Positions 21,408-44,172 of a stretch of DNA of 64,000 nt are shown piece by piece. The notes below the pieces were generated by a model, which saw only the letters and a list, made by a program, of their open reading frames with translations, made no database searches and had not been told where the DNA came from. Position numbers and translations under genes: made by a program. Numbering within the stretch: the first letter of the stretch is position 1; every line of letters begins with the position of its first letter. Source of the DNA: Kribbella soli (lineage in GTDB: Bacteria > Actinomycetota > Actinomycetes > Propionibacteriales > Kribbellaceae); the NCBI RefSeq assembly GCF_004331345.1, contig NZ_SJJZ01000004.1, positions 248,001-312,000 of the forward strand, given 5' to 3'.

Positions 21408-21503
21408 CCCTCAGGACGGCGACACAGAGCGGGACAACCGGCTCTTGTGACCGACGCATGGGTGGTCGACAGGCCCCAGGGCGGCGCCGGCCTTGCTGTG
21501 ATC

Positions 21504-21604
21504 TGCAGCTCGACAGGACGTGTCGGATGGCCGGGTAGTGCACCTGAGCGTGAACGCGCCCGTGCGTACAGCGTCTCACCGGTGCACTACCTGTCGAGCT
21601 TGCA
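21504..21604 (+). repeat. Intergenic repeat module A, copy 1
   Basis: An imperfect nested palindrome. Outer arms are TGCAGCTCGACAGG (21504-21517) and CCTGTCGAGCTTGCA (21590-21604). Inner arms are GTAGTGCACC (21535-21544) and GGTGCACTAC (21581-21590), bounding a 56-base core element. The core matches the reverse complement of 44027-44082 at 51 of 56 positions. The left spacer between outer and inner arms is less conserved. It could act as RNA hairpin, protein site or a miniature element; nothing here says which. Confidence 0.8.
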
Positions 21605-21804
21605 CATCACCCCGCCGCGAGCAGCCGAGCCGCCACCAACCCGATCACCCAGCCGGCCACCCGGTGCGGAGAGCCGGATATCCCCTCGTGGGCAAGGCTC
21701 TCGTCGTGCCCGGTCAGGCCGGCCGGTGGGACGGACCGGGCGGTGCATGCCGCGTGCGGTGCGGTGCGGGCGGTGGTGTGGTGGCTGTCACGTCGGCCTG
21801 CGGC

Positions 21805-30268: not shown

Positions 30269-30470
30269 GGAAACGCACAGCTGCGCAAAGGGCACCGCTT
30301 CGCAGCGACAGTCTTCCGCCGCCTCCGGCGGGAGCGCATCAGGTGCAGCTGGACGGAGGGACTGGCGCCAGGGGCACCACCGACTCCCACCGCAAGGCAC
30401 GGCACGCGCCCGCAGCAGGTCCGTCGGTGGGACCGGGTCGTCGAGTCGTGGGTTTTGGCGGTCACCTGCA

Positions 30471-30526
30471 GCCTCGATCCACGACTCGCGGTTTCGAGGG
30501 GCAACCAAACGCCACGACTCGGCGTG
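30471..30526 (+). repeat. Intergenic repeat module C, copy 1
   Basis: 56 bases closely matching 43853-43907. It holds CCACGACTCG twice in direct orientation (30479-30488 and 30512-30521) and ends with the small hairpin ACGCC/GGCGT. Both ends of the module are nearly identical between copies; the middle (30490-30505) varies. Confidence 0.75.
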
Positions 30527-42664: not shown

Positions 42665-43825
42665 GTGGAGCCGCGCCTGCGCGAGTTGTCCGACCGCTAC
42701 TACCGTCGCCTGGTGGAGCTGTTGGAGCGCTGTGGCCTACCCCGCAGCATGCCGCCGTTCCTCGTCCTCGGGGTGCTCGCGGCCACGACGTCCATCGTGC
42801 TCGCGGTGGTGCACCTGACCTCCCACCGGTCGCACACCGAGTCGCCGATCGCCATCGAGCCGGCCGTCGCGGGGCGGTCCGGCAGCGCCGTGGTGACTTC
42901 CGCACGCGCGCAGGTGCAGTCGATCACGATGGTGACCCGGAACCGCTGGGCGGCCGGCTGGTCCGACTGCACCAGCGGCCCGAACTGCAAGTTCGCCGCG
43001 GTCATCGACCGTGACGGCTCCCGCGCCACCGCCCCCGAGTGGCCGGTCCCGTACGCGACCCTGCAGGCGGGCAAGGAGGCGATCGCGGTCGCCCCGCCGC
43101 TCGAGGGCACGCTGACCGGCGACGCGACGATGATGTTCCGGCTGACGTACGACGGCCCGGTGCTCACCAAGCTCCAGTACCGGCTGCCCACCTCGACGTT
43201 CCAGAAGAACGAGATCCTCACCGACCGGATCGTGCCGGGCTCGATCGTCGTGGTGAACCCGGAGGAGTCGACGGTCCGGATGCTCAGGACCCGCGGCACC
43301 CGCTCCCCGGTCTGTGACGAGTCCGGCCGCTGCTGGATGCTGACCGGGATCGGCCGCACCGACGTCGTCTGGACCGACGACGGCGGCCGCACCTGGGGCT
43401 CGCGGTCGCTGGACAGCCACAACCAGCTCGGCCGGCTCGCGGTCAGCCCGGACGGCCGCACGCTGCTGTCGACCGCGATCACCATCGGCGCCGCCGGTCA
43501 GACCGTCTCGAAGATGCAGATCTCCACCGACCGCGGCGCGAACTGGACCCTGGTCCAGAACCCGCCGCCGAGCCTGAGCGCCTCGCCGCTCGCCTTCGAC
43601 GACGGCACCGCGCTGATCCTCGGCGGCCGCCGCGGCGACCGCCCACGCCTGTACCGGGTCCGCGACGGCGCCGCCAAGCTGGACCGCGGCTACCCCGGCG
43701 ACCTCGCCGACCTGTCCGGCGACACCCAGCTCATGTACGGCTTCGAGGTCCCGAAGCGTCGCACCACCGAGGTAGTCCTCAGCACCGACCAGGGCGCCAC
43801 CTGGACCAAGTTCGCCCCTCGCTAG
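42665..43825 (+). CDS. Membrane-anchored BNR/sialidase-like beta-propeller protein
   Basis: About 387 residues. A basic N-terminus and one membrane helix (about 34-52, FLVLGVLAATTSIVLAVVHL) precede an extracellular propeller. Repeats of the Asp-box type are visible: VWTDDGGRTWGSR, ISTDRGANWTLVQ, LSTDQGATWTKF. Cysteine pairs (DCTSGPNC, CDESGRCW) suggest disulfides. I used GTG 42665 because the G-run at 42654-42659 is a ribosome site five bases before it; GTG 42659 lies within that run. There is no catalytic evidence; it may be a binding protein. Confidence 0.75.
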   Translation: MEPRLRELSDRYYRRLVELLERCGLPRSMPPFLVLGVLAATTSIVLAVVHLTSHRSHTESPIAIEPAVAGRSGSAVVTSARAQVQSITMVTRNRWAAGWSDCTSGPNCKFAAVIDRDGSRATAPEWPVPYATLQAGKEAIAVAPPLEGTLTGDATMMFRLTYDGPVLTKLQYRLPTSTFQKNEILTDRIVPGSIVVVNPEESTVRMLRTRGTRSPVCDESGRCWMLTGIGRTDVVWTDDGGRTWGSRSLDSHNQLGRLAVSPDGRTLLSTAITIGAAGQTVSKMQISTDRGANWTLVQNPPPSLSASPLAFDDGTALILGGRRGDRPRLYRVRDGAAKLDRGYPGDLADLSGDTQLMYGFEVPKRRTTEVVLSTDQGATWTKFAPR

Positions 43826-43852
43826 CGCCGCACCTCGTCAGATCCGCGAAGC

Positions 43853-43907
43853 GCCTCGATCCACGACTCGCGTTTCGGCGACCAACTAAACGCCACGACT
43901 CGGCGTG
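43853..43907 (+). repeat. Intergenic repeat module C, copy 2
   Basis: 55 bases aligned with 30471-30526 with one gap. The first 20 and last ~18 bases are identical, including both CCACGACTCG repeats. The middle (TTTCGGCGACCAACT) differs. Confidence 0.75.
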
Positions 43908-44013
43908 CTACCGGTCGAGCAGGGGCTGCAGCGGCAGCCGGGCCCTCTGCCGCGCGTGGTTGGTCGGGCGAGTCGGCACGGTGGCAGTGCCGGGCGCGCA
44001 ACGACGGATCGTG

Positions 44014-44113
44014 TGCAGCTGGACAGGTAGTGCACCTCTGAGACGCTGTACGCGCGGGCGTGATCACGCTCAGGTGCACTACCCCGACGGCTGACACCAT
44101 CTGTCCAGCTGCA
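44014..44113 (-). repeat. Intergenic repeat module A, copy 2 (inverted)
   Basis: The reverse complement aligns with 21504-21604. Outer arms TGCAGCTGGACAG (44014-44026) and CTGTCCAGCTGCA (44101-44113) are perfect inverted repeats, and inner arms GTAGTGCACC (44027-44036) and GGTGCACTAC (44073-44082) are perfect. In the outer arm the change from CTCGAC to CTGGAC is matched on the opposite arm, which suggests that pairing is preserved. Confidence 0.8.
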
Positions 44114-44172
44114 CACCGACCCGACCCGCACCTCGTCGGGACTGCGACCGTCCGCGTCCGAGCGGTTCCTGC

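Follow-up and report, generated by a model that had tools for sequence, protein, structure and literature searches.

The REP and REPIN sequences mobilised by RAYT enzymes, together with the REPtrons, are the described systems closest to the one reported here. They consist of extragenic palindromes, often in inverted pairs, that show a preference for positions 3' of genes and between convergent ORFs, the enzyme gene is itself flanked by repeats, and the repeat families match their enzyme (PMC3733652, PMC3116915). Palindromic repeats without a known mobilising enzyme are an old puzzle: a 2013 survey of REPs described one whole superfamily apparently without a dedicated transposase (PMC3733652), and the CGTC-tagged REPs are palindromic repeats for which, as in the present case, no RAYT-type partner is known (PMC3733652). 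The MITEs ERIC, Nezha and QMITE form a further group of short, non-coding and mostly intergenic elements with inverted ends and hairpins (PMC10969869). We describe here a palindromic repeat, module A, found in a 64,000-nucleotide stretch of the Kribbella soli genome (the window, meaning the whole stretch of DNA that was analysed). We consider it probable, at roughly 0.7, that module A is the non-autonomous dispersed palindrome of a nuclease-linked repeat system that resembles REPIN/RAYT and employs an unrelated nuclease, a reading that builds on what is shown below, namely how the system is laid out and how far it has spread, its constant length and matching ends, the empty sites and the covarying arms.

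The window contains two copies of module A in opposite orientations (Table 1), each lying between convergent genes; those next to copy 2 end at 43825 (+) and 44173 (-). The original prediction had placed a nested palindrome at copy 1, and the palindrome is there, far beyond chance: copy 2 aligns to copy 1 with E = 5e-25, and copy 1 matches 27 further places in its own genome. We likewise recovered the predicted identity of the 56-base core to the reverse complement of 44027-44082 (51/56), the C-to-G exchange (GCTCGACAG / GCTGGACAG) that is compensated in the opposite arm of copy 2, and the TGAGCG/CGTCTCA pairing, which is present in predicted folds. The outer arms are paired as proposed, but they are longer than had been thought: some 20 bp in copy 1, interrupted by one bulge, and 16 bp in copy 2. 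When the window was scanned without gaps for 80-130 bp spans whose arms are complementary at 16 or more of 20 bases, copy 2 was the best of 8 matches (shuffled windows give 1-6); copy 1 was missed by this ungapped scan because of its 1-nt bulge. A second high-copy intergenic repeat, CGAGTCGTGG...CCACGACTCG, is partly palindromic, occurs in the window at 30439-30524 and 43822-43910, and adjoins several copies of module A.

Table 1. Positions of the two module A copies and of their parts within the 64,000-nucleotide window
Feature	Position	Strand	Remarks
Module A copy 1, whole palindrome, outer arms included	21498..21610	+	1 of 28 copies in the K. soli genome
Copy 1 left outer arm GTGATCTGCAGCTCGACAGG	21498..21517	+	one bulge in pairing with 21591-21610
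Copy 1 right outer arm CTGTCGAGCTTGCACATCAC	21591..21610	+	partner of 21498-21517
Copy 1 core GACAGG...CCTGTC, 84 bp, fixed-length	21512..21595	+	
Copy 1 asymmetric insert ACGTGTCGGATGGCCGG	21518..21534	+	one side only; bears the GTGTC sub-end common to sister families
Copy 1 invariant inner hairpin GTAGTGCACC...GGTGCACTAC	21535..21590	+	TGAGCG / GTAC..CGTCTC motifs; the 56-base core of the original prediction
Module A copy 2, in the opposite orientation to copy 1	44010..44117	-	
Copy 2 outer arm GTGTGCAGCTGGACAG	44011..44026	-	perfect pairing with 44101-44116
Copy 2 outer arm CTGTCCAGCTGCACAC	44101..44116	-	
Copy 2 core, 84 bp, fixed-length	44022..44105	-	

Module A is a repeat of about 110 bases and is dispersed, as a search for its core in related genomes made plain. 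A covariance model detected it in 29 of the 38 genomes of Kribbella, and 257 genomes from the rest of the order gave no hit; an exact-pattern scan of GTDB contigs returned Kribbella only. Plasmid and phage collections gave no match, and viral contigs weak partial relatives at most. None of 100 distinct copies lies inside a predicted gene. Convergent gene pairs hold 53 of the 95 classified copies, as compared to 67 of 380 background pairs (Fisher p 5e-13). The presence of the repeat varies widely from species to species, and orthologous sites in sister Kribbella species lack it at several positions, i.e., they are empty sites. Among copies the inner stem (GTAGTGCACC / GGTGCACTAC) is almost invariant, with internal TGAGCG and GTAC..CGTCTC motifs, and the outer arms vary yet stay paired, as the proposed covariation analysis bore out: 154 double-change cells were counted, where shuffles gave 79.5 +- 10.8 and slid controls no more than 77. 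Part of this covariation could have arisen from arm-to-arm or copy-to-copy conversion instead of selection.

In several Kribbella species two palindrome units of the T type flank a single gene, usually annotated as an antitoxin, whose product carries AbiEi_4, DUF559 and MTES_1575 domains (AbiEi_4 in 28/31 members); a protein search of the genus found relatives in 36 of 38 genomes. This gene lies outside the window and was therefore invisible to the original prediction. Using match-based gene coordinates, a palindrome was found upstream of 61/68 such nuclease genes versus 6/286 controls, downstream of 55/68 versus 17/286, and on both sides of 50/68 versus 2/286; many of the 68 are orthologues, and the independent sample is 12 locations plus five loci from other genera. 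In most cases 46-53 bp separate the end of the upstream palindrome from the start codon, and the downstream palindrome directly adjoins the stop codon or runs into it. Since the positions of the nuclease genes are conserved, the gene looks vertically inherited rather than mobile. RAYT genes are often vertically inherited too.

The motif TGTGGAYRA occurs within 75 bp before the start of 61/68 nuclease genes (58 of them at -48/-49) versus 1/397 controls, and written as TGTGGA[TC][AG]A it resembles, as a candidate, an actinobacterial DnaA box. DnaA boxes lie near only 3 of 116 dispersed module A copies, which indicates that the motif is part of the gene unit and not an insertion target. The start of the nuclease gene is probably leaderless.

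The location of the upstream palindrome bears on the idea, already contained in the original prediction, that module A is a large structured RNA, and on the related one that it serves as a transcription terminator or at mRNA 3' ends and is retained because of its hairpin. The predicted single-strand folds of both window copies are indeed far more stable than shuffled sequences (z -4.8 to -6.7), and the covarying arms and the 3' location of copies would suit such a role. However, some 50 bp lie between the upstream palindrome and the start codon of the nuclease genes, which probably places this palindrome beyond the transcript, the orientation of copies at tandem genes has no significant bias (20 versus 12, p 0.22), an Rfam 15 scan of the window matched no described RNA family, and the repeat belongs to one genus and is absent at orthologous sites in close species. 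We consequently regard a role as RNA as quite improbable.

In the AlphaFold2 model of the partner protein (pLDDT 93) the N-terminal 190 residues are like the antitoxin AbiEi of a type IV toxin-antitoxin system (6y8q) and like Rv2827c, and the C-terminus is like the catalytic domain of the EDxHD homing endonuclease I-Bth0305I (3r3p; TM 0.80 on the target). Residues E185, D216, H234, D243, R246, W255 and R259 are invariant and E227 is near-invariant, such that the modelled domain combines an EDxHD/Vsr-type catalytic fold with conserved acidic and histidine residues (E185, D216, H234, E227), and from fold and residues together we infer that the protein is a putative nuclease. It differs from AbiEi in the fusion to a nuclease domain, and at those loci that were inspected by reading no gene for the AbiEii nucleotidyltransferase toxin came to notice; as compared to I-Bth0305I, the gene is free-standing between palindromes and not intronic, and its product has an AbiEi-type domain at the N-terminus. 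A search of the literature, mostly without subscription-journal papers, found nothing relevant that links DUF559 to palindromes or to AbiEi, and as far as the searched literature goes this enzyme family has not previously been tied to repeats.

The palindromes around a gene are matched both to one another and to the protein. Comparing the upstream with the downstream palindrome of the same gene gives a score of 20.0, as compared to 6.5 for genes less than 60% identical, and palindrome ends track protein similarity (Mantel r 0.85, 0/2000 permutations). Within one genomic position, a change of end type from species to species has affected both flanks at once; the flanking ends evolve in concert.

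AbiEi proteins bind inverted repeats in their own promoters. The palindromes might accordingly be operators of the AbiEi-DUF559 protein, the upstream one serving autoregulation and the scattered ones representing a regulon or chromosome-organising sites; both the clear AbiEi fold match and the tracking of protein by palindrome ends are what such operators would predict. Yet there is a second palindrome directly at the stop codon, the dispersed copies are mostly found between convergent genes, a place where no promoter is expected (divergent pairs hold 10 of the 95 classified copies), the presence of palindromes varies widely by species, and the nuclease domain would be left unexplained, all of which leads us to view operators as unlikely. 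Neither an RNA nor an operator role, though conceivable, would account at once for the palindrome pair around the gene, for the preference for convergent genes and for the presence of a nuclease domain.

Searches with end sequences revealed that module A belongs to a superfamily whose sister families keep the CGACAGG...CCTGTCG frame and differ in their inner ends (GTATAC, GTGTC and others). Measured from GACAGG to CCTGTC, the core spans 81-84 bp, most measured units having 82-84 bp, and the interior is largely free, often with a central CTGAGCG, with the ends specific to each subfamily. At the location beside an XPB-like helicase gene, 24/24 units from 12 species have an 81-82 bp core despite their diverged interiors. 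A constant length combined with a free interior is unlike what is expected of decaying inserts.

A comparable layout is found beyond Kribbella. A homologue on a faecal scaffold (41% identity) has palindromic flanks with shared ends, a unit of about 100 bp, and TGTGGAYRA at -48. In Collinsella aerofaciens (L354 697-999, 2101-2242) a DUF559-like gene is preceded by three palindromes and followed by two, all of one family and 61-63 bp long, and in Tsukamurella a DUF559 gene lies between two palindromes of 60 bp that match each other. Two loci were found in Arthrobacter: at one a palindrome precedes the gene, and at the other palindromic sequence flanks it on either side; the motif lies at about -38 in two Arthrobacter homologues. 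The units of Collinsella, Tsukamurella and Arthrobacter are about 60 bp in size, and the Tsukamurella and Arthrobacter records contain related palindromes at other places as well. No clear palindrome pair was seen at a partial relative in Nonomuraea.

These observations allow the resemblance to a miniature element, which the original prediction had also raised, to be judged. It holds insofar as module A is dispersed, non-coding and of fixed length, with copy-specific complementary arms, empty sites in sister species and a strong restriction to Kribbella. As in MITEs there are terminal inverted repeats, and the length is under about 600 bp. It does not extend to an ordinary MITE, since neither a target-site duplication nor an insertion sequence with the same ends nor a Y1 transposase was found. 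Of the proposed checks of insertion sites, the empty sites came out as expected and the duplications did not: no direct repeat was enriched outside the arms in 89 copies, the top scores being the TGCA motif of the arms themselves, and the empty sites are too diverged for exact junctions. No insertion sequence sharing the module A ends was found in the K. soli genome; the left-end matches inspected outside known copies were mostly palindromic units, and none was the end of an insertion sequence. In contrast to ERIC, Nezha and QMITE, module A is furthermore not AT-rich and has a fixed core length. One could still suppose that module A is an ordinary MITE of some insertion sequence and that the nuclease genes are merely in insertion-prone regions, to which its inverted-repeat ends, empty sites and intergenic bias would conform. 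Against this, 19/19 exact right ends in the K. soli genome sit in full-length copies, different nuclease subfamilies have different palindromes that are mutually matched on both sides at conserved distances, and the palindrome-gene layout recurs in other genera; such a MITE is, in our estimation, very improbable. A normal MITE was rejected with neither a duplication nor a parental insertion sequence found.

A gene flanked by repeats, with repeat families that match their enzyme, is common to this system and to REPIN/RAYT (PMC3733652, PMC3116915), but here that gene is an unrelated one encoding an AbiEi-Vsr-like (AbiEi-DUF559) nuclease, the unit is about 100 bp as compared to 20-40 bp for REPs, a DnaA-box-like site lies upstream of the Kribbella gene, and 37 of 38 Kribbella genomes are without Y1/RAYT. 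The Y1 transposase (PF01797) gave no match in K. soli and was found in 1/38 Kribbella genomes (G008). The GTAG of module A lies in the paired inner stem and is not the unpaired end tag of a 20-40 bp palindrome. A RAYT-type REP was rejected, the Y1 enzyme being absent and tag and size unfit. From the CGTC-tagged REPs the Kribbella system differs in ends, size and phyla, and in having a proposed partner gene. We note that the single Y1 transposase among the 38 Kribbella genomes (L225, G008:C7:51482-51820) is adjoined by a diverging ORF, in a genome without clear module A.

Because the defining features of REP/RAYT systems and MITEs were lacking and the enzyme family has no precedent with repeats in the literature searched, we rate the system as new by descent and, by analogy, as a functional counterpart of REPIN-RAYT, with a mechanism that is offered as a proposal.

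Which nuclease would act on module A can be narrowed down. The candidate cognate gene in K. soli (G000:C2:934042-934899) lies beside the XPB-like helicase gene, and its flanking palindromes share GACAGG...GTGTC and GACAGG...GTATAC ends. The ends of module A best fit the palindromes of this XPB-side group (scores 21 to 14; other groups at most 13), the match within K. soli itself being moderate (14). The inner end GTAGTGCACC has no exact match at any nuclease-gene palindrome seen, and an XPB-side nuclease is missing from three genomes with many module A copies (G002, G023, G025), so that an assignment of the XPB-side nuclease as cognate, which rests on end sequences, is likely and not proven. 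Copies of module A show no association with DUF559 genes in general beyond the XPB-side location.

We infer that the nuclease binds, cleaves and mobilises the palindrome; no new insertion of module A was observed. In the mechanism we propose, the AbiEi-type domain would bind the matched palindrome ends, the palindrome may extrude a hairpin at the replication fork, and the nuclease domain would nick or cut it. The palindrome might then be copied into new intergenic sites via repair or replication, with copies surviving mainly between convergent genes, and the DnaA-box-like site may couple nuclease expression to replication. The chances appear evenly balanced that these features define a new class of mobile or selfish system, widespread in Actinomycetota, in which an AbiEi-fused Vsr/homing-type nuclease, possibly under DnaA control, recognises its own flanking palindromes of fixed length and spreads non-autonomous copies of them through the genome.

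If true, this would be a system that has converged on the organisation of REPIN-RAYT while using another enzyme, and it would provide a function for the many proteins whose present annotation is solitary AbiEi antitoxin or DUF559. In several genera a repeat superfamily is here tied to one gene family, through ends that match, a geometry that is fixed and a conserved motif of the replication type. This link makes the question of the mobiliser accessible to binding, cleavage and mobility assays, and it suggests that many AbiEi antitoxin and DUF559 annotations need revision.

The intergenic regions that harbour module A are often mosaic. A further palindromic repeat, GGGGATATCC...GGATATCCCC, is present in K. 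soli and related species (L007 1380-1460, L055 1633-1720, L100 4382-4475) and often adjoins module A. At L024 1370-1650 (the G000:C5:317806 region) a copy of module A lies inside a palindrome of another subfamily (ACCGAAGAACGGGTAGTGG...CCCGTTCTTCGGTAC), the host palindrome being about 40 bp short of its usual length. In other species the same convergent spots are filled by unrelated palindromic repeats (CCCCAAACCAGTTTGGGG, L168 1228-1464; CATTTCAGGGGTTCACC, L146 2160-2244; TCTCAGGGGTCAACCCC, L155 1283-1372), which suggests that convergent intergenic spots are hot spots for palindromes. Finally, genome G001 contains arrays in which palindromes of two subfamilies alternate (L126 1495-1811, L130 1318-1524), and one of the two types corresponds to the ends found at a nuclease gene (L309) of this genome.
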